Of a stretch of 64,000 bases of DNA, positions 13,473 to 31,592 are shown in pieces (the first letter of the stretch is position 1; every line of letters begins with the position of its first letter). The position numbers and the translations under genes are program-made. The stretch is from Gaetbulibacter sp. S0825 (GTDB lineage: Bacteria > Bacteroidota > Bacteroidia > Flavobacteriales > Flavobacteriaceae), in contig NZ_JAATJT010000001.1 in NCBI RefSeq assembly GCF_011777505.1, forward strand, positions 248,001 to 312,000. The letters are read 5' to 3'. The notes below the pieces were generated by a model, which did no database searches, was not told the origin of the DNA, and saw only the letters and a program-made list of their open reading frames with translations.

Positions 13473-13516
13473 TTAAGATACCTTAAGTTTTTTCTTTTAG
13501 CCACTATGTAGTTTTG
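13473..13516 (+). promoter_or_regulatory. Crp/Fnr-type operator TTAAG-N4-CTTAA with -7 element, site 1
   Basis: Perfect 5-4-5 inverted repeat TTAAG-ATAC-CTTAA (13473-13486), then 22 bp, then TAGTTTTG (13509-13516), a perfect TAnnTTTG. The repeat centre would fall near -41, the class II activator position of Crp/Fnr proteins. It is 24 bp upstream of the outer-membrane-like gene ATG. A second copy of the same 18-bp block (TTCTTAAGATACCTTAAG) is at 30773-30790 in the opposite orientation with identical spacing. Confidence 0.75.
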
Positions 13517-16488: not shown

Positions 16489-17064
16489 ATGGAAAACGAA
16501 ATAGTAAAATTAATATCTAGGTACCTAGAACTTACTAATGAAGAAGCTTCTGCTTTTGCTGAATGCATTCCAATCAAAACATTCAAAAAAGGCGACCTGC
16601 TTTTAAGTGAAGGGCAGGTTTCAAGAGATTCTTATTTTGTTATTGAAGGCTGCGTTAGAAAATATTATATTATAGAGGGTGAAGAACGTACCACTGAGTT
16701 TTATGTTGAAGATGAATCTATTGCTTCATTACAGAGCTATCAAAACAAAACACCAGCCAATCACTATTTTGAATGTGTTGAAGATTGCAGACTAGCGGTT
16801 TTAAACTATGAAAAAGAACAGGAATTATTTAAACGTGTTCCTAAATATGAAGCTTTATGCCGAATGTCTATGGAAAGTGATTTTGGTGAGCAACAGGAAG
16901 CTTTAGCTAAGTTTATTACTTCTAGCCCTGAAGAACGCTACAAAAATCTTTTAGAAACCAGATCTGATTTGCTACAGCGTGTACCACAATATCATTTGGC
17001 CAGCTATTTAGGTGTGAAACCTGAGTCTTTAAGTAGAATACGAAAAAGATTGACTAAAAAATGA
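16489..17064 (+). CDS. Crp/Fnr-family transcriptional regulator
   Basis: A 191-residue protein: a cNMP-binding-type barrel (FKKGDLLLSEGQVSRDSYFVI, EGCVRKYYI) and a C-terminal winged HTH (LQRVPQYHLASYLGVKPESLSRIRKR). It lies alone between the terminator at 16424-16454 and a convergent gene. Its recognition helix (KPESLSRIRKR) differs from those of the two other Crp/Fnr proteins in the window, so it probably reads a different operator. I found no candidate target for it here. Confidence 0.87.
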   Translation: MENEIVKLISRYLELTNEEASAFAECIPIKTFKKGDLLLSEGQVSRDSYFVIEGCVRKYYIIEGEERTTEFYVEDESIASLQSYQNKTPANHYFECVEDCRLAVLNYEKEQELFKRVPKYEALCRMSMESDFGEQQEALAKFITSSPEERYKNLLETRSDLLQRVPQYHLASYLGVKPESLSRIRKRLTKK

Positions 17065-17178: not shown

Positions 17179-18072
17179 CTATTGTTGGAGTCTGAGATTC
17201 TCAATAATTTTAGAATCAACCCAATATTTTGTTGATTCCCAATATGTACTTCCATTTTCACTTTCTTTTTCTTCTGACCTTGAAAAAAGCAAATATTTTC
17301 CGTCAAGTGTTAATCTCGCACCATTTTCTACTAGTTCTGAATTTATCTTTTCTCCCATATTAATGGCAGGACCCCATGAACCATCTTGCTGTTGAAAACT
17401 GATATAATTATCAGACATTCCATATCCATCGTCTCGCTCGCTACCCCATATTAAGAAGGATTCATCTGGAGCTATAAATGGGTGGGCTGTCCATTTTCCT
17501 GTATTAATATGTTTACCAAGTAATTTTGGTTCTTCACGTTTACCATCTATAATCCTTGATATTCGAATTTCGTCATTGCTTTTATAGTCATCAAAAACCA
17601 TAGTCCCTTTAGAAGATACTGACATCACCATAATGCCCCAATCTTCCCTATCAAACATGGAGCCTAGACTTTTAATTTTTGACCATCCAGAATCTGTACG
17701 CTCTATGTAGTTCCATCTGGAGTATAAGATGTTACTATCGCTAGGATTATGTTTAAAGCTATACTTATTAACCCTGTAATAACTACCTTCATTCCGATAA
17801 ACAACTACTTGATCCTCAAAGGGGTCGTTCCCTGAGTAAGTAAAGTAAAACTCTTGCATATCCAAAGAGTCCTTGTTCCCTAATTTCCAATCTTCAGAAG
17901 TACTCTTTTTAGGAACAAAAATTTCAGGAGTTAATCCTGGTGGCTTATACCCAAAGTATAGATTTTCCTCTATTGAATAATCATTCTTTTTTGTTTCTGA
18001 TTTCTCAGTTTTACAAGCACTTAAAAATGCACAAAATACGAGTACTGAGAATTTAATAATAAGATTTTTCAA
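17179..18072 (-). CDS. PD40 beta-propeller lipoprotein
   Basis: A 297-residue lipoprotein: hydrophobic start (KFSVLVFCAFLSAC) with Cys20 as the lipidation site. Propeller-type repeats include FIAPDESFLIWGSERDDGYG and LTLDGKYLLFSRSEE, matching the paralogue at 767-1714. The start codon is TTG at 18072; an in-frame TGA lies two codons upstream and no ATG is available. Transcribed alone from a promoter with a TTAAC-N4-GTCAA operator that overlaps the 3' end of the next gene. Confidence 0.8.
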   Translation of the reverse strand: MKNLIIKFSVLVFCAFLSACKTEKSETKKNDYSIEENLYFGYKPPGLTPEIFVPKKSTSEDWKLGNKDSLDMQEFYFTYSGNDPFEDQVVVYRNEGSYYRVNKYSFKHNPSDSNILYSRWNYIERTDSGWSKIKSLGSMFDREDWGIMVMSVSSKGTMVFDDYKSNDEIRISRIIDGKREEPKLLGKHINTGKWTAHPFIAPDESFLIWGSERDDGYGMSDNYISFQQQDGSWGPAINMGEKINSELVENGARLTLDGKYLLFSRSEEKESENGSTYWESTKYWVDSKIIENLRLQQ

Positions 18073-18101: not shown

Positions 18102-18145
18102 TAAAAATATTACTCTAAGCAGTTTTAATTATTGACTTTAGTTAA
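18102..18145 (-). promoter_or_regulatory. Crp/Fnr-type operator TTAAC-N4-GTCAA with -7 element, site 1
   Basis: Minus strand TTAAC-TAAA-GTCAA (18132-18145), 22 bp, then TATTTTTA (18102-18109). The 45-bp block is nearly identical (41 of 45) to the one at 19672-19716. The operator lies inside the last codons of the serine-hydrolase gene (18125-19663), so one stretch is both coding and promoter. Confidence 0.7.
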
Positions 18146-19663
18146 TAATGAAAGCTTTTCTGAAGAATTGTCACACCAAAAGCAGTCGTCATTTTTTGGT
18201 TGTAGTTCTAAGGCTTTTGTATAGGCTTTAATAGCGTTATCGTTTACATTTGCTTTGTAATAGGCATCACCAAGCGAATCCCAACTATTGCCATCTTCAG
18301 GAAATAGTTGTGTGTTAAGCTTATAGATGGTAATGGCTTTTTCCATTTTATTTTTTCTGTAATACGTGCCTCCTAAACGATTTAAATGTCTTGGTGAGTC
18401 GATGGTATTTTTAAATTTCAGTTTTAATTGTTTTACTAAATTATCAATACTACCCTTATATGCTTCAGTAAATTTGTAAAGCTCACTAACCATATACTTT
18501 GGTAATTCTTCAGGAACATAGGCCTTATCAAATAACATCTTTTCAATTTCCATGGTCATTCTTCTTATAGGTCTAATATATGCATTAGAGGCAAATAGTA
18601 TCACAACATCTTCTTCTGGAAACCATACAAATTCATTATATGAAACTCCATTAAACCCATTGTGTGTGATGACTTTAGTATTTCTTTTTGATGTAAAAAC
18701 AGTCCAACCATAAGTATAGTGGCTCGACTCATCTTCATATTCAGCTACATAGGGTTTTGTGAGTGTTTCAAAGGACTCCTGAGATAATATTTTATTAGAC
18801 TTTAATGCTTGATACCATTTATACATGTCATTGTTTGTGGAATGTATGCCACCATTAGCCAGTACAGTCCTTGCTATTTCTCCATCTTTTTTATACTGAG
18901 CGATATATGAACCTTCATTGGAAACATTAAGCAGATATTCATTGGCAATAGTTGTGCTATCCCATTCTGGTAACAAATAACCTGTTTGATGCATTCCTGA
19001 TGGTTGAAATAAGTGTTCATTCAGATATGTTTCATAATCCTGACCAGAAACAAGCTCGATAATCCTCCCTAAAATACTGTAGCCTGAATTCGAATATGAA
19101 TATTCTGAGCCTGGAGTAAATAATAGCTTCTCTTGAAACAGGTTTGAAAAATAAATATCCATTGATGTGAGATCAAAATCATCTGTACTACCATGACTAA
19201 AACCAGCTGAATGGGTTAATAACTGATGTATGGTGATGCCTTTTTTATCCTCTGGTAAATTATCAAAGAAGGTACTGATAGGGCTCTCCAGTTTTAATTT
19301 GTTGTCTTCCGCTAACTTGACAATAGCAGCACCTGTAAACTGTTTTGACACCGAACAAATATCATACACCGTATTAGGGTTATTGAATACATTATTTTCT
19401 TTGTCGGCGAACCCGAATCCTTTATTAATAATAATAGAATCGTTTTTAGCAACTAAAACAGCTCCTGAAAACCCATTAGTTTCACTTTGTTTTAAATAAT
19501 TACTGATGCGATTACTCAACAAATCAGATTCATCTGTCGTTGTTTTATTCGATTGGCAGGCAACACTTAAAATAGCATTTAAACAACCTAACACAAGGAA
19601 TATGCTATGTTTAACTTTTGGAATAGTTAATTGTAATTTGTTGTTCATAATAATCATTTTCAT
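18125..19663 (-). CDS. Serine beta-lactamase-fold hydrolase lipoprotein with C-terminal TPRs
   Basis: 512 residues from ATG 19663; Met3 (19657) or Met6 (19648) are equally possible starts and the latter fits the promoter better. The lipobox is LSVAC (Cys36). Class C beta-lactamase / penicillin-binding fold motifs are S104-V-S-K107, Y-S-N (YSYSNSGY) and H-x-G (THNGFNG). Residues ~425-505 hold TPR-like helices (LGGTYYRKNKMEKAITIYKL, SLGDAYYKANVNDNAIKAY). It probably acts as an exported D-amino-acid peptidase or esterase on the cell surface rather than as an antibiotic-resistance enzyme. Monocistronic. Confidence 0.85.
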   Translation of the reverse strand: MKMIIMNNKLQLTIPKVKHSIFLVLGCLNAILSVACQSNKTTTDESDLLSNRISNYLKQSETNGFSGAVLVAKNDSIIINKGFGFADKENNVFNNPNTVYDICSVSKQFTGAAIVKLAEDNKLKLESPISTFFDNLPEDKKGITIHQLLTHSAGFSHGSTDDFDLTSMDIYFSNLFQEKLLFTPGSEYSYSNSGYSILGRIIELVSGQDYETYLNEHLFQPSGMHQTGYLLPEWDSTTIANEYLLNVSNEGSYIAQYKKDGEIARTVLANGGIHSTNNDMYKWYQALKSNKILSQESFETLTKPYVAEYEDESSHYTYGWTVFTSKRNTKVITHNGFNGVSYNEFVWFPEEDVVILFASNAYIRPIRRMTMEIEKMLFDKAYVPEELPKYMVSELYKFTEAYKGSIDNLVKQLKLKFKNTIDSPRHLNRLGGTYYRKNKMEKAITIYKLNTQLFPEDGNSWDSLGDAYYKANVNDNAIKAYTKALELQPKNDDCFWCDNSSEKLSLLTKVNN

Positions 19664-19672
19664 AGTTTATGA

Positions 19673-19716
19673 TAAAAATATTGTTCTAAGTAGTTTTAAT
19701 AATTGACTTTAGTTAA
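19673..19716 (-). promoter_or_regulatory. Crp/Fnr-type operator TTAAC-N4-GTCAA with -7 element, site 2
   Basis: Minus strand TTAAC-TAAA-GTCAA (19703-19716), 22 bp, then TATTTTTA (19673-19680), matching TAnnTTT without the final G. It drives the serine hydrolase gene. The -7 element lies only 9 bp from ATG 19663, which favours the internal ATG at 19648. Confidence 0.72.
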
Positions 19717-19734
19717 GAAACATTTTCTATTCAA

Positions 19735-20394
19735 CTACCATTCTCTTATTTTTCCTTGATGCCAAAACTGTCCGCTTATAACATCAGTATGTAGTAAGTT
19801 TAAAATGTCAATAGCCACATCTTTAGGTAAGCGAGGTGCGATTTTGCCTCCCATATCGGTTTGTGTCCATCCTGGATCTAGAGACGATACTATAATATCC
19901 TTTTCCTCTAATCGTTTTGCCAACAACTTGGTGTACATATTTAAGACCGCTTTAGACATCTTGTAATGTGGCTGAAAGGCATCAAAGTTCTGCTCGCTAA
20001 AAGAGCCCCAATCAGACGTGATATTTATAATATGTGCATTAGGAGCCAAAAGTGGTAGTAGTTTTTCGGTGAGTTCAATAGTGCCAAAAACATTGATATT
20101 GAATGTTTTTTTCAATTGTTCCATATTGATTTCTGACGTATCCCATTTTTCCAGTAATACACCTGCATTATTTATTAAAAAGTTGAGCTTTATATTTTCT
20201 AAATTCTCAACGAATTTGTCAATAGAATCATTATTGGATAAATCGAGTTTTAAGCATTTAAAATTAGAATGTTCTAATAGATTATTTCCTGAGGTGGAAG
20301 ACCCAATCACGTTAAAATGGGGCTGCTTTGTCAACAACTCAACCGTTGCCAAACCAATACCTCTACTGCTTCCTGTAACTATTCCATGTTTCAT
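19735..20394 (-). CDS. Short-chain dehydrogenase/reductase (SDR)
   Basis: I place the start at ATG 20394 (MKHGIVTGSSRGIG) because it overlaps the preceding stop as ATGA, a classical coupling; a frame from 20406 is also open. The product is 219 residues. Motifs: TGSSRGIG (NAD(P)-binding), NNAGVL, and the catalytic Tyr-x-x-x-Lys (HYKMSK, here Y-K-M-S-K). It resembles carbonyl-reductase / sniffer-type SDRs. Last gene of the 21308-19735 operon. Confidence 0.87.
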   Translation of the reverse strand: MKHGIVTGSSRGIGLATVELLTKQPHFNVIGSSTSGNNLLEHSNFKCLKLDLSNNDSIDKFVENLENIKLNFLINNAGVLLEKWDTSEINMEQLKKTFNINVFGTIELTEKLLPLLAPNAHIINITSDWGSFSEQNFDAFQPHYKMSKAVLNMYTKLLAKRLEEKDIIVSSLDPGWTQTDMGGKIAPRLPKDVAIDILNLLHTDVISGQFWHQGKIREW

Positions 20395-20846
20395 GTTGTA
20401 TGCCATTTTACTATTGATTTATTATGTATTTGAGCTCCTAGCTTTTTATAAAACCTAATGGCTTTTTCGTTATTACTTTCAACCTCCCATTTTATGAGTT
20501 TAATATTGTTTGAAACACAAATGTCTTTTGCATGTTGCATCAATTTTTGCCCAATGTTGTTCCCTCTAAATGGTTTGCATACAAACAGGTCATCTATAGC
20601 CATGTATGTACTTCCATTCCAAATAGAATAGTTCCACATATATGTAACATAACCTATTAAAACACCTTTGTGTTCTGCTATGATAGCTTCGAATTTTTGA
20701 GGCTGAACATTTGAAAACCCTGATTCAGTTATTTGGTCTAAATCTGTTTTTAGGTATTGTAGTTGACCTTCATATATAGCAAGTCCCTTAATTAAACCTA
20801 ACAACGCTTTAGCGTCTTTCTGGCTTGCTTTTCTTATGATTATCAT
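20391..20846 (-). CDS. GNAT-family N-acetyltransferase
   Basis: A 151-residue protein with the complete GNAT layout: IIRKASQKDAKALLGLIKGLA at the start, DLFVCKPFRGNNIGQKLMQ as the acetyl-CoA loop (R-G-x-x-I-G), and NEKAIRFYKKLGAQ as the last strand. It resembles spermidine/spermine N-acetyltransferase-type members. Three bases separate it from the SnoaL-like gene, and its stop overlaps the SDR start. Confidence 0.88.
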   Translation of the reverse strand: MIIIRKASQKDAKALLGLIKGLAIYEGQLQYLKTDLDQITESGFSNVQPQKFEAIIAEHKGVLIGYVTYMWNYSIWNGSTYMAIDDLFVCKPFRGNNIGQKLMQHAKDICVSNNIKLIKWEVESNNEKAIRFYKKLGAQIHNKSIVKWHTT

Positions 20847-20849
20847 ATT

Positions 20850-21308
20850 TTACCAATATTCTTTAATCATAAAAATCTTTCCATCCTTAAATTCAAAAAG
20901 GGCCATTTGCTTATCACCTTTAACCACTTTACCTTCTTCTTTTGTGATGAAGCGTTTACTTACTGTAATGGCATTTAAGCCATAAATAATGTTCTCGATT
21001 TTTATATCAACAACACTTCCGTCGTAGCCTCCATTATTTTGATTACGTTTATAACCATTGTAAAGATCTTCTCTTGTATAAACACCACCATATTTTGGGT
21101 GCGCATAGGTGAAATCGTCTGTAAACAAGGTAAAAATGTTATCTATGTCTTTTAAAGTTGAGTTTTGTTGAAATACTTTTAGGTTTAGTTTATAATACTG
21201 ATTTAGTGTATAGTTTAGCGAATCTTTATGAGTAAGATTATTTTGTTGGGCTTGAGCCAAATTAAGGGCACTAAACAAAAACGTGATAATTATTAGTTTT
21301 AGTTTCAT
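20850..21308 (-). CDS. Secreted SnoaL/NTF2-like protein
   Basis: A 152-residue protein with signal peptide (MKLKLIIITFLFSALNLAQAQ). The body has an NTF2-fold pattern: a helix with NIFTLFTDDFTYAHPKYGG followed by strands IENIIYGLNAITVSKRFIT and MALFEFKDGKIFMIKEYW. Such pockets bind or convert small hydrophobic molecules. First gene of an operon with GNAT and SDR, under the operator at 21411-21454. Confidence 0.82.
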   Translation of the reverse strand: MKLKLIIITFLFSALNLAQAQQNNLTHKDSLNYTLNQYYKLNLKVFQQNSTLKDIDNIFTLFTDDFTYAHPKYGGVYTREDLYNGYKRNQNNGGYDGSVVDIKIENIIYGLNAITVSKRFITKEEGKVVKGDKQMALFEFKDGKIFMIKEYW

Positions 21309-21410
21309 ATTTTTAATCTTCTGCTAAGGCATTTAAATTTTCTCTTTTTCTGTTCAAAAATCCAACAGAATCTGGCTGTCTTTTTTAAAACCCAACATAT
21401 TATTTACAAG

Positions 21411-21454
21411 CAAATTTATAGCTTTATGGAATTAACTTCATTGACTTTAGTTAA
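21411..21454 (-). promoter_or_regulatory. Crp/Fnr-type operator TTAAC-N4-GTCAA with -7 element, site 3
   Basis: Minus strand TTAAC-TAAA-GTCAA (21441-21454), 22 bp, then TAAATTTG (21411-21418), a perfect TAnnTTTG. About 100 bp of leader separates it from the ATG at 21308. It lies three bases past the stop codon of the flavin-reductase gene. Confidence 0.78.
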
Positions 21455-21457
21455 GAA

Positions 21458-22003
21458 TTAATATTTTGGAAAATTGATTATTGTCTGAAATTTATTAACC
21501 TTAGATTGAATTTCTGCTTTCAAACTTTCATCATTGATTTCTCCGCAATTGAAATTATCGTAGAATGAGGGTAATGAAAATGTATCTGTGATACTGGCTC
21601 CCATAAACGGAAAGTAAGCACTTGCAGATTGTAATACGCTTTCACCACCTCTACCTCCTGGTGAGGTTGCCATTAATAGCATAGGTTTTTCTCTCCATAT
21701 TTTCATATTTACACGAGATAACCAGTCTATAATATTTTTAAATACCGCTGCATAAGACCCATTATGTTCTGCGAGAGATACTATAAATCCATCGGCAGTA
21801 TCAAATAACTCGTCTAGTCTTTTTACCGCAGTCGGAATACCATTTTCAGTTTCAAAATCAGCACCATAAATTGGCAATACATAATCATTTAAATCAATTG
21901 AAATAATTTCTACTTTTTCTAATAAATTAGCGGTATAGGTTATTAAACTATTGTTTATAGATTTTTGACTATTACTACCTGCTATTGTGATTATTTTTTT
22001 CAT
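21458..22003 (-). CDS. NADPH-dependent FMN reductase (flavodoxin-fold)
   Basis: A 181-residue protein. GSNSQKSINNSLI near the start is the FMN-phosphate loop, and LAEHNGSYAAVFKNIIDWLSR and LMATSPGGRGG are the two other flavin-binding loops of the azoreductase/FMN-reductase superfamily. It would transfer electrons from NAD(P)H to quinones, azo dyes or flavin. It follows the DoxX gene by 8 bp; a flavin enzyme also ends the parallel operon at 15775. Confidence 0.9.
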   Translation of the reverse strand: MKKIITIAGSNSQKSINNSLITYTANLLEKVEIISIDLNDYVLPIYGADFETENGIPTAVKRLDELFDTADGFIVSLAEHNGSYAAVFKNIIDWLSRVNMKIWREKPMLLMATSPGGRGGESVLQSASAYFPFMGASITDTFSLPSFYDNFNCGEINDESLKAEIQSKVNKFQTIINFPKY

Positions 22004-22011
22004 AATTACTG

Positions 22012-22461
22012 TTATTTAGAGATTAAGTTATCTATTGACCATTTGCCACTACCATTAACTATTATCGTTAAGGCAAGACCGATTATTAAGAGCGAATATT
22101 CGTAACCTTCACCACCCTGATTACCAAACCAATTCATAAAAAAGCCATGTTCTAATTGTGTTGTATATATGATACCTATAAACATTCCTGCTAGTGATAA
22201 TGACCAAAACCTACTCAAGAATCCTAGAATTAGTGAAATTGAGCCAAAGAATTCAATCATAATTATTGAGAAGGCTACAATGCTTGGTAATGCCATTTGT
22301 GTTGTAAAAAATTCTATGGTTGCCGTATAACCATTACCGCCAAAAAGACCTAATAATTTCTGTGCGCCATGCGGAAATATGACTAACCCAAGTGTTAATC
22401 GTGCAATGCTAAATCCAATATTTGGATGTGTCGTTAAAAGTGTTTTTACTAAATTTTTCAT
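22012..22461 (-). CDS. DoxX-family membrane protein
   Basis: A 149-residue, four-helix protein: ARLTLGLVIFPHGAQKLLGLFGG, IEFFGSISLILGFLSRFWSLSLAG and a C-terminal helix GYEYSLLIIGLALTIIV. This is the standard DoxX/SURF4-like pattern. It sits 22 bp after the outer-membrane-like gene and 8 bp before the flavin reductase, so it is probably a membrane partner in the same redox function. Confidence 0.9.
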   Translation of the reverse strand: MKNLVKTLLTTHPNIGFSIARLTLGLVIFPHGAQKLLGLFGGNGYTATIEFFTTQMALPSIVAFSIIMIEFFGSISLILGFLSRFWSLSLAGMFIGIIYTTQLEHGFFMNWFGNQGGEGYEYSLLIIGLALTIIVNGSGKWSIDNLISK

Positions 22462-22483
22462 AATGTTTTAGATTTAAAATTGT

Positions 22484-23128
22484 TTATAAAGTTTTTCGGT
22501 AATACACACCGAAAGATGATTGTTCTAAATGTGTTTGCCCATATTGGTCAAAGTCTAAACCAATACCCAATTGGTGCCCTTTGTAAGACACACCTGCACG
22601 CAATTGCTGAAAACTCCTTGAGTGCGTTTTAAAATCGTCCCAGACTGTTAAAAACTGACAATTGAACCAAAAAGAGATTTTATCATTTATGGGTTTGTTG
22701 AATTGAAACTGTGCAAATGCTTCAGCATAGCTGTGATTGGTTTGCTCAGAATGGGCTATGGTAGGTATAATTACAAATACTATACGTGAATTTTTTAGTG
22801 TAATCTTTGCTGACAAACGTTCTGAATACCCAGCAACACTGTTGTAATATAAAGATGGCCCAATTGTAATATTCTTATTAATACTCCAAAATAGTGTTGG
22901 TTGAATTCCTACTTCATCAAAATCCTCATACTCTTTATCATTGAATTTTTGAAAGAAAGCCAACGTATTAATGTTTAGAGTCTTGCTCTCATTAATAGCA
23001 TAACTTGAATATAATGTAAAATCTGTTTTATTATAACCAGAAAACAGTTCTACTTGTGTAAATTGTGCTTGCAAATAGTTGGCAAACCCAATTGTTAAAA
23101 ACGATGTAATGATTATTATTTTTTTCAT
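22484..23128 (-). CDS. Outer-membrane beta-barrel-like secreted protein
   Basis: A 214-residue protein with signal peptide (FLTIGFANYLQAQ). The rest consists of amphipathic strands (ITIGPSLYYNSVAGYSERL, ISFWFNCQFLTVWDDF, QLGIGLDFDQYGQTHLE), a pattern shared with 13540-14160, although the two are divergent. It leads an operon with DoxX and an FMN reductase. A partial TTAAC-type half site lies 64 bp upstream inside the Crp/Fnr gene. No named family recognised. Confidence 0.7.
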   Translation of the reverse strand: MKKIIIITSFLTIGFANYLQAQFTQVELFSGYNKTDFTLYSSYAINESKTLNINTLAFFQKFNDKEYEDFDEVGIQPTLFWSINKNITIGPSLYYNSVAGYSERLSAKITLKNSRIVFVIIPTIAHSEQTNHSYAEAFAQFQFNKPINDKISFWFNCQFLTVWDDFKTHSRSFQQLRAGVSYKGHQLGIGLDFDQYGQTHLEQSSFGVYYRKTL

Positions 23129-23181
23129 GCTTCAAAATTCCGATAGGAACACATGAAAAAAAATGAACTAGTTTAAGACTT

Positions 23182-23775
23182 TTACATTCTATTGACTTTC
23201 GATATAATTTTACTCATAAACTCTGGCGTAATACCAATGTACCCTGCCAAGTCTTTCTGGGTAATTCTATTAACAATATTTGGATATTTCTTTTTGAACT
23301 CGATATATCTTTCTTCTGCTGTTAAGGATATACCATGGTTAGAACGCCTAATGTAGCTTATGAGTGATCTTTGATAAAGTATTCGGTAAAACCTTTCAAA
23401 TTTTGGTATTTCTTGAAAAAGTAAATCATAATTAGCTCTAGAAATACCTAACAACTCTGAATCTTCAGTAGCTTTAATAAAATAACGTGATGGTTGTTTG
23501 GTTATAAAACTTGCAATGTCTCCTGTCCAATAATCTTCAACCGCAAACATTGAGATATGTGGTACGCCATCTACATCTAAAGTATATGCCTTTAAGCAAC
23601 CTTTAGTTATAAAATACTCGTATTTAGTAATTTCTCCCGCTTGCATTAAATAAGCCCTCCTTTTTACTTTTACTTCTGTAAGCAAAGAAATATACTTCTG
23701 CTTTTCAAGCTCGGTTAAATCAATAAATCTACTAACATTATCAATAATTAGTTTATGTGAGTCCTTCAATTTCAA
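23182..23775 (-). CDS. Crp/Fnr-family transcriptional regulator
   Basis: A 197-residue protein reading from a TTG at 23775; no ATG is available and another in-frame non-ATG start lies just upstream, so the start is uncertain. The cNMP-binding-type barrel spans ~25-115 (VKRRAYLMQAGEITKYEYFI) and the winged HTH is ITQKDLAGYIGITPEFMSKIISK. It is adjacent to the outer-membrane/DoxX/FMN-reductase operon. By proximity it is the prime candidate to bind the TTAAC-N4-GTCAA operators at four promoters in the window. Confidence 0.87.
   Translation of the reverse strand: MKLKDSHKLIIDNVSRFIDLTELEKQKYISLLTEVKVKRRAYLMQAGEITKYEYFITKGCLKAYTLDVDGVPHISMFAVEDYWTGDIASFITKQPSRYFIKATEDSELLGISRANYDLLFQEIPKFERFYRILYQRSLISYIRRSNHGISLTAEERYIEFKKKYPNIVNRITQKDLAGYIGITPEFMSKIISKVNRM
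23192..23205 (-). promoter_or_regulatory. Degenerate TTAAC-type half site
   Basis: Minus strand ATATC-GAAA-GTCAA keeps the right half and spacer of site 4 (31579-31592) but only three of five left-half bases. No good -7 element lies 22 bp downstream. It overlaps the last codons of the Crp/Fnr gene and lies upstream of the outer-membrane-like gene. It may be a weak site or chance. Confidence 0.35.
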
Positions 23776-23801
23776 AATGATTCTATATACTTTCTTTAAA
23801 A

Positions 23802-23930
23802 TTAAGCATTTAATCCTTTTTGCTGAAAAACTTTGCTCATTTTTTCATTAGCATTAATACATCCAATTATTATAGGTTTAGATGTATAGAACCAAAGAGC
23901 CAATGGATGATAATGTTGAACTATAATCAT
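23802..23930 (-). pseudogene. Small frame, possible gene remnant, in the 23776-24058 gap
   Basis: A 42-codon frame from ATG 23930 (starts MIIVQHYHPLALWFYTSKP) stays open a further ~17 codons upstream without a start. A second short frame ending VVDVWEASVKT precedes it on the same strand (stop near 23974); its end resembles the C-terminus of NmrA-like proteins. Together they look like decayed 3' ends of former genes, but I recognise no family with confidence. Confidence 0.2.
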
Positions 23931-24058
23931 CTCTTTCAGACCAAATTTTGAGATACAGTAAGTGAATATGACTTGTTTAAGTTTTTACAGATGCTTCCCA
24001 AACATCTACAACTTTATTATATTCAAAACTATCTATTCAGTCTATTCTATGATCCATT

Positions 24059-27000
24059 TTATATTGCCCTAAATAATTTATCAATTTCAGATTTGACTGC
24101 CTCATTTGGTGCTACTTTATAAAATTCCTCAAGCAAATCTAAAGTTGTAGGCTTTTTTGGGTATTTGTTATTGGCTAAAAAACTTCTTAGCGCTTGATTT
24201 ACTTTATCTTCACCAATTGATTCAGATAATTCCACCATTACAATAGCGCCTTTTGAGTAAGCTATATGTGTTGCATCATAAGGCACTTTGTATAAAGGTG
24301 GATCTCCATAAAGTCCTTTTTCATTATCATAAATTTGTTGATGTACTTTAACACGTTCCATCATGCGCTCTTTCCCATACAACTTTTTGTAAATCATCAT
24401 TTCAGTATACATAGCCAAAGACTCTGTGAGCATTGAAGCACCTTCTCTTTCATCTGGATTTATTTGACTATTTCCCCACCATATATGAGCCAACTCATGA
24501 CCTGCTAACTCATTTATGACATCTTTGCTTGGATCACTATCTATATTAGCATGAAATATCATGTTTTCGGTCATAAAAATGGTGGCTGGATATGCTGTAG
24601 CTGCAAACCCACTCGTAAAAGATGAGATCTCAACAAAGCTTATTTTTTCAAATGGGTAAGCATTAAAATTATCTATACAATAATCTAAACTTAAAACCGC
24701 ATTATTCAGTAGTCGATCTACATTTTCAAAATGCATGTCATGATAAAGTACTTCAATCTCTATGTTACGATGCTTGATAGATTGCTTTTGGTACTTAGCA
24801 GATGCAACTGCAAATCGAAATGGAATACTATCGGCTTTGTATTGGGTATTTGCCCTATCTTTTTCAGTCCAGGTTTTAACTACATCCCCAATTCCCAAAG
24901 GCGTTTGATTGCTTTCAGTGGTTACTACCATATTTAAATTTATAAAATCCTTTTTAAAGACTTTTGGTGCTTCAAGCTTCTTTAAATTTGTTGGATTACC
25001 AAGTTCATGTTCTTCTCGTTTTTGTTGATTCTCTATCTCTTTATGTGATTGGTATCCCAACAAAGGATAATGATTACTAATCCTCATGAACGAACCATTA
25101 TCAACGATGGCATTAAAAGATTGATGCCCATTGACAGCGAACCATTTGTATGATAAATTAAACTCCAGAGTCGCTGTATCACTTGGCATAAAAGGTTCAT
25201 CAAGTTTTACCTCTGAAACAATCTCATCAACTGAAATATCTTTATTATGCATTCTAAATGTTGCTTCATTTAATTCTAAGTCGGAATGAAAATTCAATAG
25301 AATCTTATTTATTGGTTTATCTGTTAGATTTTGAATTCTATATTTTCCTTGAATTTTATAAGAATTTTCAGAAGGATACAAGTCTATTTTTGTGTCTACA
25401 TCTATAATTGTTGGTTGCGATATATTTTGATAATGACGGTAATTTTTTTCATAATTAACTGCTTCAATTATTTGTACATCTTCATTTTTTGGTAAATAGC
25501 CATTCATAAAATTAAAGCCTCCAAAAACGCCTAATGCAAAGAAAACAATGGCAATAAAAGATTTCAACTTGGTCCATTGTTTAAATTTTAAAAATGAATT
25601 TAAAACCCATATTAAGCCCAATAGGCTTATTCCAAAAAACAATCTGTTTGAAAAGGCCGACAGATAAGCACCATATCCATTTAAGTCGCTAAACACACCA
25701 TTGAACCCTGAGAAAATGTGTAACAATGGATATGGCAACAACATCTTAAATAATGGTGTTGCAAAAACTACAACCGCTAATATTGAAACACCTAAGGCTA
25801 CATATTTGCTATTTATAATAGTATTGACAAGAAGTAATAATGCCCCGAAAAGGAAAAGCGGAATTGTATTAAATATAATAACCCCAAAATAAGCCAACCA
25901 ATCAATTTGGGTATATCCATAACTTATTTGTAACACTAATGCTAATACTATAAGTAGCGTAGTTAAGAATACCAATAGCACAGCTAATGACATTAAGTGC
26001 CCTTTTAATTTCGCTTTTGAAAAAAATGTACTGTCTTCAATTAAATAAAAATTGGCTGTAGTACTTCGCCAATACATATCATTTATAAAATACACTAAAA
26101 CAAATGCTCCTATTAAGTGAAAGCTTTGAGAAATAGAAGTAGCCAAAAGTCCTGAACTGGCATAATAATTTGGTAAACGTATGCCTTTATCTATATCAGA
26201 ATACATCTCTATACCAACATAGAATACTAACAGCATTGAAACGGCAACTATGGTTACGCTTTTAAAGAGGTAAACTATATCAACCTTTGCAAAGGAAATA
26301 ATTGAACTGAACTCTGACTTAAAACTAAAATTAAGAGCTGGTGTTTTAACTTTTGTTAATCTTACTTTTACATCCTTAACCTTATGCTGAATACGCTTTA
26401 ATTCCTTTTTACTTGTCGCTTTATTGAACACATAAAAACGATAAGAAATTACCAAAAACAATATTGACAACAACATATAAGCTATACGATTGATAGCCAA
26501 AAAGCCTTTTAATGGAACGATGAACTGATTTTTATCGGTAACACTAAAGTCTTTAGCTTCAAAGAAATATGCTGATACTCCAAAAGGATCTAATAATGAT
26601 GATAGTTGCTGGGTTTCAATAGATTGTGGTATGCTTCCTGCCATAAATGGCGAATTAGAAAACACCAGTAATACCATGTAAAGCACATACAATAGTAAAC
26701 CTCCAATAACCACTAATAACTTCTTGCGTGAAGTATAAGCAATCATAAACAAGAAGCTACAAACAAAAAAGCAGTTTAAAACTCCAAAGATCAAAAAAGG
26801 ATAGAGATACGACCAAAAACTAAACCCTAACTGCATTTCATTTCCAGTACGCGAGTTTTGACCAATGACAAAACCTAAAATTAAGATTAAAAAACTTAGA
26901 AAAGTTTTTAAAGTAAACACTGAGAATTTTCCTATTAAATAGTTTTTAAGCGTAATTGGATATGAGAACAACATGATATCAAATTTTGTATCCCATTCCT

Positions 27001-27229
27001 TAAATAGAATCTCCAAGGCAAATAAAATAGCCATAAAAATTATTGATAGACTCAACAAAGCCATCATAAAGCCAATTGTGTAAGGAGAATTAAGATAAAT
27101 TCCTTCACCAGCAGTTAGGTTAAACTTATAACCGCAAAACCATCCTATAAACAGTAATATGACACTTGTTAAACCTAAGACATAACGATTTCCGCTATGC
27201 TTTAATTGAAATTGAAGTATAGCATTCAT
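24059..27229 (-). CDS. ABC permease fused to an M1-family zinc peptidase
   Basis: 1056 residues. The first ~570 hold about twelve membrane segments typical of ABC-2 permeases (KEWDTKFDIMLFSYPITLKNYLIGK, repeated in a second half). Residues ~600-1056 are an M1 aminopeptidase-like domain with the zinc motif HELAHIWWGN and the downstream Glu in LTESLAMYTE. Such fusions occur in Bacteroidota. The peptidase domain is probably periplasmic. ATG at 27229 is two bases after the ATPase stop, so the two form one transporter. Substrate unknown; processing of an exported peptide is plausible. Confidence 0.88.
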   Translation of the reverse strand: MNAILQFQLKHSGNRYVLGLTSVILLFIGWFCGYKFNLTAGEGIYLNSPYTIGFMMALLSLSIIFMAILFALEILFKEWDTKFDIMLFSYPITLKNYLIGKFSVFTLKTFLSFLILILGFVIGQNSRTGNEMQLGFSFWSYLYPFLIFGVLNCFFVCSFLFMIAYTSRKKLLVVIGGLLLYVLYMVLLVFSNSPFMAGSIPQSIETQQLSSLLDPFGVSAYFFEAKDFSVTDKNQFIVPLKGFLAINRIAYMLLSILFLVISYRFYVFNKATSKKELKRIQHKVKDVKVRLTKVKTPALNFSFKSEFSSIISFAKVDIVYLFKSVTIVAVSMLLVFYVGIEMYSDIDKGIRLPNYYASSGLLATSISQSFHLIGAFVLVYFINDMYWRSTTANFYLIEDSTFFSKAKLKGHLMSLAVLLVFLTTLLIVLALVLQISYGYTQIDWLAYFGVIIFNTIPLFLFGALLLLVNTIINSKYVALGVSILAVVVFATPLFKMLLPYPLLHIFSGFNGVFSDLNGYGAYLSAFSNRLFFGISLLGLIWVLNSFLKFKQWTKLKSFIAIVFFALGVFGGFNFMNGYLPKNEDVQIIEAVNYEKNYRHYQNISQPTIIDVDTKIDLYPSENSYKIQGKYRIQNLTDKPINKILLNFHSDLELNEATFRMHNKDISVDEIVSEVKLDEPFMPSDTATLEFNLSYKWFAVNGHQSFNAIVDNGSFMRISNHYPLLGYQSHKEIENQQKREEHELGNPTNLKKLEAPKVFKKDFINLNMVVTTESNQTPLGIGDVVKTWTEKDRANTQYKADSIPFRFAVASAKYQKQSIKHRNIEIEVLYHDMHFENVDRLLNNAVLSLDYCIDNFNAYPFEKISFVEISSFTSGFAATAYPATIFMTENMIFHANIDSDPSKDVINELAGHELAHIWWGNSQINPDEREGASMLTESLAMYTEMMIYKKLYGKERMMERVKVHQQIYDNEKGLYGDPPLYKVPYDATHIAYSKGAIVMVELSESIGEDKVNQALRSFLANNKYPKKPTTLDLLEEFYKVAPNEAVKSEIDKLFRAI

Positions 27230-27231
27230 AA

Positions 27232-28104
27232 TTAATTGTTTTGAGAAAGAACATTAAAGTAAACGTGCTCTAGTATTGGTTCAACTGATGAAAATGCTTC
27301 AGGTTGTGTAGGTGAAAACACTGTGATTTGAAGTTGACGCTCTATAAGTTGTTGACTAATAACTTTTAGATTTGATTGGTAAATTTCTAGTTCATCATTA
27401 TTAATAAATTTTGACCAGATTTTACCTTCTAAATCTTCAATTAAGTCTTTTGGCTTACCAGTTTTAAGAATTCTACCTTTATTCATTATGGTCATTTCAG
27501 AACATAGGTTTTTCACATCTTCAACTAAATGAGTAGATAAAATCACAACTACTTCACTACTAATATCACTTAAAAGCGTGTTAAAGCGGTTACGCTCCTC
27601 TGGGTCTAGTCCTGCTGTTGGCTCGTCTACAATGATGATTTTCGGGTTACCAAGTAAAGCTTGGGCAACGCCAAAGCGCTGTTTCATACCGCCAGAAAAG
27701 GTATGTACCTCTTTATCTCTAAAATCCCAAAGGTTGACTTTTTCTAACAAATATTGAATCTGTTTCTGACGTTCAACTTTATTATTAACACCTTTTAAAA
27801 AAGCTATATGGTTTAATAAGTCGTATGCATTTACCTTAGGGTACACTCCAAAATCTTGTGGCAAAAATCCTAGATTTTTTTTGATATAATCTGTGTCTTG
27901 TACTACATTTATATCATTAAACATAATAGAACCTGAAGTTGGTCTCTGTAATCCCACAATCGTTTTCATTAAGGAGGATTTACCAGCACCATTTGGGCCT
28001 AACAATCCAAACATTCCATTCTTTATCTCTAATGAAATATTTTTTATGGCTTCATGACCGTTTTTATAGGTAAGATTTAGATTCTTAATCTTTAGTGAGT
28101 TCAT
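27232..28104 (-). CDS. ABC transporter ATP-binding protein
   Basis: A 290-residue ATPase: Walker A GLLGPNGAGKSSL (residues ~33-45), signature TFSGGMKQRFG, Walker B IIIVDEPTAGLD, and H-loop STHLVED. The C-terminal ~70 residues are the variable extension of CcmA/DrrA-type exporters. It starts at ATG 28104, overlapping the previous stop as ATGA, and drives the permease-peptidase fusion encoded directly downstream. Confidence 0.93.
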   Translation of the reverse strand: MNSLKIKNLNLTYKNGHEAIKNISLEIKNGMFGLLGPNGAGKSSLMKTIVGLQRPTSGSIMFNDINVVQDTDYIKKNLGFLPQDFGVYPKVNAYDLLNHIAFLKGVNNKVERQKQIQYLLEKVNLWDFRDKEVHTFSGGMKQRFGVAQALLGNPKIIIVDEPTAGLDPEERNRFNTLLSDISSEVVVILSTHLVEDVKNLCSEMTIMNKGRILKTGKPKDLIEDLEGKIWSKFINNDELEIYQSNLKVISQQLIERQLQITVFSPTQPEAFSSVEPILEHVYFNVLSQNN

Positions 28105-29240
28105 ATTTTAATCTTTTTAATTGCTTTTGTCTTCTCTTTTAATAATTTTTCCGAATCTGGATACTTTTCTAATAAAACATCATACAATTCAACCGCCTCT
28201 TTAAAACGATTACTTTTTACATAAAAGTTAGCAAAGTGAGAAACGGCATACTCCATATTACCACTCATCAGTCCATCAATTATTTTCTCTTTATCTAAAG
28301 CATTGAGTAATGTTTCAAAATGATAAAAATCTTCTGCTCTCATGGCACTTCTAATGATGGTAAATTTAGACCAGAGAGAAAGTTCTGGAGAAAACCCATA
28401 TCTGTTTGCTCTTTCTTTGGCATAACGATTAGCATAGTCTAAACCACCAGCATTGATAAATTTTTGAAGATTATTGGTTTCAAATTCCTGATAGTATTTA
28501 TAATAGTTTCTAAGTCCATGATATAAGGTTGGGTAACCAGTTGAACGGTGTTTTTCTATATAAAGGTTTAAGAAAGTCCATTGTAATCCTTCAATATTTT
28601 TTTGAGATAATAAGGAATCTAATTTAACGGCACTGTGTTTTCCATCATACTCGTCTGGACTTATAGAAAAATAGAGGTTTGTTGGTAATGTTGAAACACC
28701 GTTTAACTTATCTATGGCTTCCATTATAGGATACGCACTTGCCATGATATGTGCATCAAACAATGTTGGGTTTGACAACATCGTGTTAAAAACTAAACTT
28801 GCACCAAACTCCCATCCAAAAAATAATTTTTCATTATTGGTTCTAAAGTTAGTATCTATATATGGTATAAGTTCAGTACTAACAAACTCAATAAATTTTT
28901 CCTTTCCTTCTCCTAAATCCTGAAATCGTTTTGGGTAATCAGTATTTATTCCAACAACTATAAACTCTGGCGTTAATTGGAACTGTTTAAAAGATTGATT
29001 TAAGCTTACTGAGTATAGAAAAAATCGCTGTCCATCCAACACATACACCACAGGATATTTTTCATTAGAATGTGCATAATTTTGAGGAAGATAAACCTGA
29101 ATCTGTCTCTCCTCGCCCAACGCTTTTGATTTAATAAAATGGTTTGTCCCTATAGTATTATTAGTAGGACTATTTTGAGCGTTTACACTTACTACTAATA
29201 AGCAACTTATAAACGTTGAAAAAACTATTCTTTTTATCAT
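28101..29240 (-). CDS. Secreted esterase-like protein without the nucleophile serine, C-terminal repeats
   Basis: 379 residues with signal peptide (FISCLLVVSVNAQ). The Esterase_D-type fold is clear: RQIQVYLPQNYAHSNEKYPV and YVLDGQRFF. At the elbow, where G-x-S-x-G-G is expected, it reads LFFGWEFGASLVF, with Glu in place of Ser. Residues ~340-379 look TPR-like (SNRFKEAVELYDVLLEKYPD). It may be a non-catalytic binding protein. Its stop overlaps the ATPase start (ATGA) and the CHMI gene is 10 bp upstream. Confidence 0.82.
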   Translation of the reverse strand: MIKRIVFSTFISCLLVVSVNAQNSPTNNTIGTNHFIKSKALGEERQIQVYLPQNYAHSNEKYPVVYVLDGQRFFLYSVSLNQSFKQFQLTPEFIVVGINTDYPKRFQDLGEGKEKFIEFVSTELIPYIDTNFRTNNEKLFFGWEFGASLVFNTMLSNPTLFDAHIMASAYPIMEAIDKLNGVSTLPTNLYFSISPDEYDGKHSAVKLDSLLSQKNIEGLQWTFLNLYIEKHRSTGYPTLYHGLRNYYKYYQEFETNNLQKFINAGGLDYANRYAKERANRYGFSPELSLWSKFTIIRSAMRAEDFYHFETLLNALDKEKIIDGLMSGNMEYAVSHFANFYVKSNRFKEAVELYDVLLEKYPDSEKLLKEKTKAIKKIKI

Positions 29241-29250
29241 ATTTAAGAAA

Positions 29251-29595
29251 TTATATCATAGCTTTATTACAATAGGTTGCTTTCTCAAAATCCCTTATGT
29301 TGATAGAGATAATAGGCACTTCAGGAAACATAGCTTTAAGCTCTGTCACAATTTGCTTTGACAGTTTTGCTTTTTGTTCCGTATTTCGCCCTTGCATGAT
29401 ATTAGCAAATACATGAATAAAATCAGCTTTAGTATTCCCAACAGTATAATGTTGAAAAGAATTAATCCTTACTTTAATATCGTCAGGAGCAAACAATCCT
29501 GTTGATTCTGCTGTATCATATACTTTTTGCATGATATTTTCAGGTGATTTTAGTTCTATGATCTGTTGCGAACAGTCTATTACAAAGTGTGGCAT
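29251..29595 (-). CDS. CHMI-family isomerase, second copy
   Basis: A 114-residue protein starting MPHFVIDCSQQ, with Pro2 as expected catalytic base and the same segments DIKVRIN, FIHVFANIMQGR and ISINIRDFEKATYCNKAM as the copy at 2291-2635. The two are about three quarters identical and equal in length. It is embedded in an operon between a serine hydrolase and an esterase-like gene, not in an aromatic degradation cluster, so its substrate may differ from that of classical CHMI. Confidence 0.82.
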   Translation of the reverse strand: MPHFVIDCSQQIIELKSPENIMQKVYDTAESTGLFAPDDIKVRINSFQHYTVGNTKADFIHVFANIMQGRNTEQKAKLSKQIVTELKAMFPEVPIISINIRDFEKATYCNKAMI

Positions 29596-29615
29596 ATCGT
29601 TTTATTTTAAAATTT

Positions 29616-30695
29616 TTACTTTTTAAACTTTTTGATTACTAAGGCCGTGATTTGCCTTGTTGCCTGCGTTGGCGAATTACAATCACAATTACTAAACCCA
29701 ACAACATAAATATCTAAACTTGGCACATAAACGCCCATAGATTTAAAGCCAAATACACTTCCTCCATGTTCTCTCGTTGGCACACCATCAATATCTTTTA
29801 AACGCCAACCATAACCATAGGTAAATTGCTCTCCATTGTTTAATGTGTTTTTTCGAAATACTTTATCAATTGTACTCTGAGAAATTAACAGATTATTGTT
29901 AATGGCTTCTTGCCATTTTAACATATCGTCAACGGTTGACATTAAAGAACCAGAAGCATACGGAATACTTAAACTCACAAACATTTTGTTTGTAAACGCT
30001 CCTCTGTTATGATAGCCATAGGCTCTATTTTTTACAATCTCTCTATCACTCGCATAACGAGAATTGTTCATTGCAAGTTTTTCGAAGATGTTTGTTTCTA
30101 TAAAATCTTCGTATGTTTCTCCAGAGACCAATTCTATTATATATCCTAATACTACATAACCAGAATTATTATACTCAAATTTTTCACCTGGCTTAAATTC
30201 TACAGGTTCATCTTTAAAAAAGTCAACTAGCTCTTTTGGTGCCATATCTTTTCTTGCAATTCTCAAAATGGATTTCATCTTAGTAAAATCCTTAATACCA
30301 GACGTATGCGTCAATAAATGATGAATAGTGATATTGTTTCCATTAAGGTAATCTGGAATAAATTTTGAAACAGCATCATTTACATTTAATTCCCCTTGTT
30401 CTTGGAGCATCATGATAGCAATAGCTGTAAATTGTTTGGTCGTAGAACCTATTTGAAAAACATTTTCTGGCATCATATCTACATCGAGTTCAATGTTAGA
30501 TTTACCAAATGCTTTTCTGTATATTGACTCACCATTTTTTGCTACTAAAAACACACCTCCTGGTTCATCCTTCTTTTTGAACACAGTAGTTAAAACACTA
30601 TCTATTTGAGTTTCTAAAGTTTGTGAATATGTGTATTGTAGAACCAAAATAGTACTGACAAAAAACAGGCTTCGTTTTAATAGTTTTAATTTCAT
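29616..30695 (-). CDS. Secreted serine beta-lactamase-fold hydrolase
   Basis: A 359-residue protein with signal peptide (residues 1-24, LQYTYSQ). Active-site motifs: S-T-T-K (QIGSTTKQFTA), Y-N-N (FEYNNSGY) and H-G-G (REHGGSVFG). It belongs to the class C / AmpH / esterase EstB group; without the rest of a resistance context it is more likely a peptidase or esterase. First gene of the operon continuing through CHMI, the esterase-like gene, the ABC ATPase and the permease-peptidase, under the TTAAG operator at 30774-30787. Confidence 0.87.
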   Translation of the reverse strand: MKLKLLKRSLFFVSTILVLQYTYSQTLETQIDSVLTTVFKKKDEPGGVFLVAKNGESIYRKAFGKSNIELDVDMMPENVFQIGSTTKQFTAIAIMMLQEQGELNVNDAVSKFIPDYLNGNNITIHHLLTHTSGIKDFTKMKSILRIARKDMAPKELVDFFKDEPVEFKPGEKFEYNNSGYVVLGYIIELVSGETYEDFIETNIFEKLAMNNSRYASDREIVKNRAYGYHNRGAFTNKMFVSLSIPYASGSLMSTVDDMLKWQEAINNNLLISQSTIDKVFRKNTLNNGEQFTYGYGWRLKDIDGVPTREHGGSVFGFKSMGVYVPSLDIYVVGFSNCDCNSPTQATRQITALVIKKFKK

Positions 30696-30743
30696 TGTGT
30701 TCGTTTTTTATTGATTATGTATTAGATGTTCTTATTATTAATC

Positions 30744-30787
30744 CAAATTTAATTGGTCAGCTTATTAATAATCTTAAGGTATCTTAA
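30744..30787 (-). promoter_or_regulatory. Crp/Fnr-type operator TTAAG-N4-CTTAA with -7 element, site 2
   Basis: Minus strand TTAAG-ATAC-CTTAA (30774-30787), 22 bp, then TAAATTTG (30744-30751), a perfect TAnnTTTG. The core and its flanks are the same 18 bases as at 13471-13488. It drives the five-gene operon starting at 30695. Confidence 0.78.
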
Positions 30788-30832
30788 GAAAATTTACCAA
30801 TCTCGAATTATGACTAAAAGAGCTTCTTGGGG

Positions 30833-31525
30833 TTACACAAATTTTGCATTTTGTAGTCCCCTTTGTTTTTTAAACCCTTTAATTAGTAGCCAAACTGTAA
30901 AAGAAAACTCTCCAATTACTGATGGCATAATCACGATAACTTCAAAAACATCTTTATAATCAATATAATTTGGCATAAATAGTTTAGCCATACCATCTAT
31001 AATGTAACCTATAGCTGCTAGAAGCAATAACAGACCTAGAGCTTTCGGGATATATTGTGATTTTAAGGCTAGATATCCTAAAACAATTAAATGGATACCA
31101 AAAAACAATAATCCAACAGTCCAAAGTGTGTCAAAATCTAATAATAGCTTCATTACACGATGCTGTAAGGTTACAGAATTACTTGCATTAAATGTTAGCT
31201 GATAAATATTCCATAGCTTAAATAAGGCAATACCAAAAAACAGGGCGTGCAATAACCTAAAAAATGAAGCTAAATAAGTGATGTTTTTACTTATTGATTT
31301 TGTTAAACCAAAAAGTGACCAAACCAGAAGTGCATCAAAAAACAACATCATAACAAACCCAAGTAATCCGTTTCCGAATTGTGAATGATTATTAATAAAG
31401 TTTGCAGTTGTAATTGACGGATTATTAATATCTAGGAGGCTTTCAAGCACGGCAAAATTGGCATAAAAGCCAGATATAAAAATCATTAAATAAGCTATTC
31501 CCGAAATTTTTGCAATTTCTTTCAT
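30833..31525 (-). CDS. DUF4386 membrane protein
   Basis: A 230-residue protein with six hydrophobic segments. The start (KISGIAYLMIFISGFYANF), the middle FRLLHALFFGIALF and GIHLIVLGYLALKS match the DUF4386 family, whose function is unknown. Monocistronic, transcribed from the promoter at 31549-31592 with a TTAAC-type operator. A DUF4386 gene sharing an operator with hydrolase and redox genes is the only clue to its role. Confidence 0.85.
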   Translation of the reverse strand: MKEIAKISGIAYLMIFISGFYANFAVLESLLDINNPSITTANFINNHSQFGNGLLGFVMMLFFDALLVWSLFGLTKSISKNITYLASFFRLLHALFFGIALFKLWNIYQLTFNASNSVTLQHRVMKLLLDFDTLWTVGLLFFGIHLIVLGYLALKSQYIPKALGLLLLLAAIGYIIDGMAKLFMPNYIDYKDVFEVIVIMPSVIGEFSFTVWLLIKGFKKQRGLQNAKFV

Positions 31526-31548
31526 AATTCTACATATTATATTCTATG

Positions 31549-31592
31549 CAAAATTATTGGCTCACAAAATAGATTTCATTGACTTTCGTTAA
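31549..31592 (-). promoter_or_regulatory. Crp/Fnr-type operator TTAAC-N4-GTCAA with -7 element, site 4
   Basis: Minus strand TTAAC-GAAA-GTCAA (31579-31592), 22 bp, then TAATTTTG (31549-31556), a perfect TAnnTTTG. It is 24 bp from the DUF4386 ATG. Unlike sites 1-3 the spacer is GAAA rather than TAAA. Confidence 0.78.

Follow-up and report, generated by a model that had tools for sequence, protein, structure and literature searches.

The 64,000-nucleotide stretch of the Gaetbulibacter sp. S0825 genome analysed here (contig NZ_JAATJT010000001.1, positions 248,001 to 312,000; hereafter the window) carries four TTAAC-N4-GTCAA inverted repeats, each standing at one fixed distance from a promoter box of the TAnnTTT[G/A] type. 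This fourfold arrangement is real and more general than first noted. The sequence comparisons indicate that the four repeats are very probably operators for class II activation by Reg2, a Crp/Fnr regulator encoded at 16489-17064, next to the cluster, which is one of three paralogs with their own palindromes. An earlier reading of the window (the original prediction) had attributed the repeats to another Crp/Fnr gene, 23182-23775, here called Reg3; the gene of Reg2, the operator's apparent partner, was absent from that finding. The regulator class then proposed is upheld by the fixed class II position and by the linkage to Crp/Fnr genes, and the gene then named is replaced by Reg2.

The four repeats were recovered on the minus strand, where they had been reported, with no mismatches to TTAACNNNNGTCAA, and the spacing from TTAAC[T/G]AAAGTCAA to the TAnnTTT[G/A] box is exactly 22 bp at all four sites (Table 1). 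When the window was shuffled 200 times with its dinucleotides preserved, the repeat alone appeared 0.28 times on average and three times at most, against four observed; the repeat followed at 22 bp by TAnnTTT gave a mean of 0.005 and a maximum of one, again against four. The scan of the whole 3.16-Mb genome for the repeat, the 22-bp spacing and the box returned only these four as exact matches, and the flanked operator TTCTTAACYNAAGTCAATGAA, at up to three mismatches, also returned only these four, against three for its reversed form. A wider regulon in this genome was found neither with the flanked operator at that setting nor with the full pattern at up to two mismatches, which presented no enrichment (38 matches against 57 for the reversed pattern). 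Within the window, the 14-mer repeat at up to two mismatches was not enriched either (92 against 116.5 expected). Since looser settings never exceeded the control, the operator set appears to be local in this genome. The promoters at 18132 and 19703 are near-copies, with 18 of the 22 spacer bases the same by reading, so the four sites count as about three independent ones. Their operators have the lowest matrix scores of the four, with weaker flanks and with TTTA in place of TTTG in the boxes, and the 18132 repeat overlaps the final codons of the open reading frame (ORF) 18125-19663. The promoter segments concerned, 18102-18145 and 19673-19716, are near-identical and apparently arose by local duplication.

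The operator was also found next to relatives of Reg2 in other genomes. The best 80 of 340 stretches, selected by protein alone and carrying relatives of 47-94% identity, contain TTRAC-N4-GTCAA 85 times, in 58 of the 80 loci, symmetric sites being counted on both strands, against six occurrences of the reversed pattern; a stricter operator pattern gave 40 against 0 reversed. The predicted fixed spacing holds in these loci as well: in the 60 bp examined beside each TTRAC-N4-GTCAA site, TAnnTTT is located at 22 bp in 43 cases, at 23 bp in seven, and at any other distance in three or fewer. The consensus of 54 sites from the relatives is TTC-TTAACYnAAGTCAA-TGAA, 22 bp, TAnnTTTG, and its letters TTC, AA and TGAA were not imposed by the search pattern. 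A weight matrix reached at least 14 bits in 70 of the 80 loci and in none of the 80 reversed ones, and at least 12 bits in 71 against six. Twelve of the 70 positive loci come from the 22 that have no core match and hence provided no training site. Built without the window sites, the matrix ranks these four 1 to 4 in the window, with the scores listed in Table 1; the fifth score, 4.3, belongs to the other strand of one of the four, and the first unrelated one is 3.5.

The scan of 199 genomes of the family with the window-derived pattern revealed ten sites in six genomes against one reversed match. In four of the five other matched genomes, an ortholog of 16489-17064 with 53-85% identity lies near the site, and the stretches from these four (L037-L038, L039, L040 and L042; 7.9 to 40 kb) contain no Reg3 ortholog. 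A match in genome G180, TTAACCAAAGTCAA, is probably due to chance: it has no TGAA flank, the next gene is on the opposite strand, and there is no Reg2 ortholog in the 20-kb stretch, a 40% homolog being on another contig. The flanked operator at up to one mismatch is present in 11 of the 199 genomes, at 13 places. A Reg2 homolog at E<=1e-30 occurs in 45 of the genomes, which include all 11 (p 2.8e-8); the stricter limit of E<=2e-42, chosen post hoc, leaves 20 genomes and still includes all 11 (p 4.6e-13). Within the genus, the operator at up to two mismatches occurs in three of six genomes, including that of the window, at seven places against one reversed.

These distributions make it very improbable that Reg3 binds the four repeats, as the original prediction proposed. 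Although the Reg3 gene is situated among the four sites and its product carries a Crp/Fnr sensor domain (PF00027, 7.4e-10), five of the six other family genomes with a close Reg3 ortholog (54-86% identity) have no flanked operator, and in the sixth (G102) the operator is 726 bp from a Reg2-type gene and about 2 Mb from the Reg3-type gene. The converse is seen in the four genomes cited above, whose operator stretches include Reg2 orthologs and none of Reg3. In addition, another conserved operator, TTAAA-CTAG-TTCAT, stands just past the stop codon of Reg3. Its half-site TTAAA is similar to that of the four repeats, and the operator is identical in the window and in all eight other Reg3 orthologs of at least 83% identity.

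Class II CRP sites are centred at -41.5, and the -33 element of Bacteroidota is TTG. With the flavobacterial sigma-A box at -12 to -5 (PMC9723704), a spacing of 22 bp centres the 14-bp operator at -41.5, in agreement with the class II position, near -41, first suggested for the repeat centre; the right half-site and the TGAA flank fall in the -33 region. In the mechanism that we propose, a Reg2 dimer would sit on TTAAC-N4-GTCAA, centred at -41.5, in replacement of the -33 element, and would contact RNA polymerase at the adjacent TAnnTTTG box. The DUF4386 gene, the SnoaL-GNAT-SDR genes, the serine hydrolase-TPR gene and gene 17179-18072 would be activated in this class II manner. Reg1, the third paralog, would act on TTAAG-N4-CTTAA and Reg3 on TTAAA-CTAG-TTCAT, both at the same 22-bp distance. 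From the sequences we infer both the binding by Reg2 and the preference for activation over repression. Five loci of myxobacterial Reg2 relatives (L089, L108, L112, L115 and L120) present an operator-like site 22-23 bp from TACT[CG]T, as recognised by a looser form of the pattern that was written after viewing these five. The geometry thus seems to be retained when the promoter box differs, which favours polymerase contact and activation over repression. Pyxidicoccus, Archangium, Corallococcus and Myxococcus are taken here to be Myxococcota, and the myxobacterial Reg2-type regulators may reflect transfer between phyla.

Reg2 could instead bind and repress by covering the -33 region, with the genes induced when it leaves. 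The consensus has TGAA in place of the -33 TTG, which suggests promoters that are weak unaided, and a repressor needs no fixed distance to the box, whereas the distance is nearly constant at 22-23 bp, also in the myxobacteria with their other box. Repression is therefore considered unlikely, even though the operator does overlap the -33 region and some Crp/Fnr proteins repress, FNR doing both (PMC4505428). Least credible of all is that the repeats play no part in regulation and belong to a local element, mobile or duplicated. The near-copies at 18132 and 19703 would suit such an element, but the 54 sites of the relatives vary in most of the spacer and keep the operator and the box, and the same operator with the same spacing precedes unrelated genes in other genera.

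Further support for the Reg2 reading comes from the recognition helix. Among 130 Glu- or Gln-type LSR proteins, for which only GTCAA and GTGAA were sought, within 1.5 kb, the residue aligned with Glu-209 of FNR covaries with the half-site: where a site is present, Glu-type genes have GTCAA (52 of 52) and Gln-type genes have GTGAA (17 of 17), three Gln-type genes being without a site at that distance. In the protein-fetched Gln-type set, 13 of 15 Gln loci have GTGAA and none GTCAA, and seven of 12 Glu loci, the genome of the window left out, have GTCAA and none GTGAA. The L103 genome, which has both regulator types, has both sites, with GTGAA 10 bp past the Gln-type gene. A tree built without the recognition residues contains three Glu/Gln changes, which provide two independent contrasts, both concordant. 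The residue at the FNR Glu-209 position may be one determinant of specificity in the LSR-type clade. At the Gln-type loci (L196-L211), the box is 23 bp away, not 22 bp, for 16 of the 17 sites.

Several results weigh against Reg2 as the activator acting from these operators. The training sites of the matrix were drawn from the same loci that were then scanned, and 10 of the 80 Reg2-relative loci have no operator at 14 bits or more, among them the close relatives L043 (94%) and L047 (86%) and three of the five myxobacterial loci, L108, L112 and L115, which score 6.4, 12.5 and 6.4 bits. In the family, nine of the 20 genomes with a good homolog have no flanked operator at up to one mismatch, three of these nine (G134, G002 and G142) being Gln-type with GTGAA sites; the operator of G019 and the Reg2 homologs listed for that genome are on separate contigs; and the reversed control of the flanked operator gives six places in six genomes. 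As for the covariation, 58 of the 110 Glu-type genes lack a site in the 1.5-kb range, and there are two independent contrasts only, so the Fisher value (1.7e-16) overstates the evidence. The simple Glu/Gln rule fails for the Pro-type (PPSLSR) genes, L208 having GTGAA and L143 having TTAACTCAGGTTAA.

The three paralogs, all within 11 kb, combine one 22-bp geometry with three different 5-4-5 palindromes. The second palindrome, CTTAAG-N4-CTTAAG, surfaced in the match list of the Reg2 matrix. In the window, its core lies 9 bp past the stop of 12873-13463 (Reg1), and CTTAAGATACCTTAAG has no perfect copy in the genome other than the two Reg1-type operators of Table 1; at two mismatches there are five further places against one for the control. 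This palindrome is present in 12 of the 17 loci with an ortholog of Reg1 of at least 50% identity and in two of the 63 without (Fisher 8e-9). For Reg3, two more distant orthologs (61% and 54%) have altered forms of the operator, and the Reg3-type operator with its T-rich flank has one occurrence in the genome at up to three mismatches. When perfect 5-4-5 palindromes were counted with no half-site assumed, their distance to TAnnTTTG peaked at 22 bp in the Reg2 loci, with 28 palindromes there and an average of 2.3 at each other distance. In 38 more distant Crp/Fnr loci, found as homologs of Reg2 or Reg3, the corresponding figures were five and 0.5; L146 and L180, which supplied two of these five, are a single place. 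In the segment 23126-23140, GAATTTTG is followed by AAGC and then by the ATG of gene 22484-23128. A box at -12 to -5 would place the transcript start at this ATG, so a leaderless mRNA is predicted; the spacing from box to start codon is the same in eight orthologs, two of them with GTG.

Table 1. Regulators, operators, promoter boxes and associated genes in the window (bits refer to the weight matrix of the Reg2-type operator)
Feature	Position	Strand	Remarks
Reg1, paralogous Crp/Fnr regulator	12873..13463	+	Recognition helix PEFLSYLRKK; family assigned from the alignment with Reg2 and Reg3
Reg1-type operator TTAAG-ATAC-CTTAA	13473..13486	+	Just past the Reg1 gene; box TAGTTTTG at 13509-13516, 22 bp away
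Reg2, Crp/Fnr regulator	16489..17064	+	Recognition helix PESLSRIRKR; predicted reader of TTAAC-N4-GTCAA
Gene labelled PD40 lipoprotein in the original prediction	17179..18072	-	No Pfam support (no match at E 0.001)
-7-like box TATTTTTA	18102..18109	-	22 bp from the 18132 operator
Beta-lactamase-family serine hydrolase with TPR	18125..19663	-	Pfam PF00144, 6.6e-54
Reg2-type operator TTAAC-TAAA-GTCAA	18132..18145	-	Weakest copy; 19.6 bits
-7-like box TATTTTTA	19673..19680	-	22 bp from the 19703 operator
Reg2-type operator TTAAC-TAAA-GTCAA	19703..19716	-	Before the serine hydrolase-TPR gene; 24.0 bits
SDR gene	19735-20406	-	
GNAT gene	20391-20846	-	
SnoaL-like/DUF4440 gene	20850-21308	-	Both Pfam matches below or near cut-off
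-7 box TAAATTTG	21411..21418	-	22 bp from the 21441 operator
Reg2-type operator TTAAC-TAAA-GTCAA	21441..21454	-	Before the SnoaL-like/GNAT/SDR genes; 31.3 bits
FMN reductase gene	21458-22003	-	Behind the Reg3-type operator
DoxX-like gene	22012-22461	-	Behind the Reg3-type operator; by reading of the sequence
Gene behind the Reg3-type operator	22484-23128	-	No Pfam match
Reg3-type operator TTAAA-CTAG-TTCAT	23163..23176	-	Past the Reg3 gene; box GAATTTTG at 23133-23140, 22 bp away
Reg3, Crp/Fnr gene named in the original prediction	23182..23775	-	Recognition helix PEFMSKIISK
Second Reg1-type operator	30774..30787	-	Precedes the beta-lactamase-family gene 29616-30695; box TAAATTTG at 30744-30751, 22 bp away
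DUF4386 gene	30833..31525	-	Pfam PF14329, 2.3e-46
-7 box TAATTTTG	31549..31556	-	22 bp from the 31579 operator
Reg2-type operator TTAAC-GAAA-GTCAA	31579..31592	-	Before the DUF4386 gene; 31.3 bits

Reg2 has a sensor domain of the cNMP-binding type (PF00027, 40.2 bits against a cut-off of 27.5) and a candidate C-terminal Crp-type helix-turn-helix (PF13545, 20.9 bits, below the cut-off of 27). Its predicted fold (pLDDT 88) matches FNR and CRP chains across nearly the whole length, being aligned to them up to residue 191 with Z of 14-17; the comparison with FNR 5e44 gave Z 16.6 over 185 aligned residues, with a root-mean-square deviation of 3.0. The chain terminates at the recognition helix, and no later strand is present in the model. 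The sequence profile aligns PESLSR of Reg2 with VETISR of FNR, and the Glu-x-x-Ser-Arg recognition residues of FNR are present in Reg2. In 38 aligned rows, S182 and R183 are invariant and E179 is nearly so; the invariant columns include a single cysteine, C96. The N-terminal [4Fe-4S] cysteines of the FNR type were not found in the translation, whose first 25 residues contain no cysteine, so Reg2 is not FNR.

The half-site assigned to Reg2, TTAAC/TTGAC, is not the TGTGA of the cAMP-dependent CRP. The closest solved relative is 3dn7, a Crp-like protein of Cytophaga hutchinsonii (1.4e-40), which has the recognition helix PEYLSEIRKK and whose entry names neither an operator nor a function; its match to the Reg2 model covers 144 residues of the sensor half with Z 17.9. 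The FNR box, TTGATNNNNATCAA, is a 5-4-5 palindrome (PMC4505428), and FNR with its class II promoters resembles Reg2 in this palindrome, in the recognition Glu, Ser and Arg and in the fold. On the other hand, the half-site of Reg2 ends in C (TTGAC/TTAAC), the N-terminal Fe-S cluster motif is lacking, and the targets are not anaerobic respiration genes. The PrfA box, tTAACanntGTtAa, which is centred on -41.5 (PMC3443378), has nearly the same half-site and the same position as the Reg2 operator, but the phylum, the sigma box and the targets are different, and the Reg2 sites, unlike the PrfA box, are asymmetric (TTAAC with GTCAA) and have conserved TTC and TGAA flanks. CprK is a Crp/Fnr regulator of another organism group and with another ligand, which has the (de)halobox TTAAT-N4-ATTAA; in CprK, one base of the half-site is linked to Val-192, which corresponds to Glu-209 of FNR (PMC2610375). 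This is the same position that covaries among the Reg2 relatives, and a Glu/Gln contrast like theirs is absent from the accessible part of the CprK account.

Class II Crp/Fnr regulation is a known kind of control. Bacteroidota operators of the present kind were not found described among the matches listed from the literature searched, as judged by titles and the beginnings of abstracts, with subscription papers and RegPrecise outside the search; the same literature yielded no mention of DUF4386 and no paper joining Bacteroidetes, TAnnTTTG, Crp and a binding site. For a Crp-like protein of Riemerella (PMC13277301), the accessible part of the paper gives no operator. From the loci compared, we lean towards a wider picture in which Bacteroidota, and some Myxococcota perhaps by transfer, possess short Crp/Fnr activators, often several per genome, all acting at -41.5. 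Their operators would have diverged (TTRAC, TTCAC, CTTAAG and TTAAA/ATGAA half-sites), and a readable recognition code would determine at least one base, the third of the half-site, which would be G with Glu at the FNR Glu-209 position and C with Gln. If this is true, specificities could be read from genomes in bulk, the operators being often directly past the regulator gene or before a convergent neighbour. To our knowledge, only a small number of transcription factors in flavobacteria and related bacteria have a known operator, and here a regulator, its operator, the promoter geometry and the targets, several of them of unknown role such as DUF4386, are tied together by sequence alone in many genera. 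Three adjacent paralogs with different operators, together with the covariation of residue and base, would make the avoidance of cross-talk among Crp/Fnr proteins directly testable. These two features, the second at a known specificity position of FNR, would also permit a cheap prediction of operators for many uncharacterised Crp/Fnr proteins.

The genes downstream of the operators were chosen mechanically: of the ORFs with a start no more than 450 nt from the box, the longest was taken. Some target assignments are therefore surely wrong (e.g. that of L049, 449 nt away). This procedure gave 66 downstream genes, four in the window and 62 in the relatives, and two of the 68 sites, without an ORF, were left out. 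The commonest target family is DUF4386, with 21 of the 66 genes, that of the window included; it is followed by the zinc-binding dehydrogenases, with 13, and the remaining families are scattered. In the window, the SnoaL-like, GNAT and SDR genes (19735..21308) form a putative operon, whose extent we infer. Families of SDR, GNAT, FMN reductase and hydrolase are found near the operators in the window, and a role of the targets in the handling of toxic compounds is offered as a guess.

In the region 29616-31592 of the window, a Reg2-type operator stands before the DUF4386 gene and a Reg1-type operator stands behind it, facing the beta-lactamase-family gene. The same genes and operators are present in L038 (593-2570), and the same two operators surround a DUF4386 gene in L052 (12390-13200); two sister regulators may thus feed one DUF4386 gene cluster. 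Fully symmetric operators, TTGAC-N4-GTCAA, occur at L076, L091, L096, L098 and L099, where the genes that follow encode 201-206 amino acids (111 in L096) and are convergent with the regulator.

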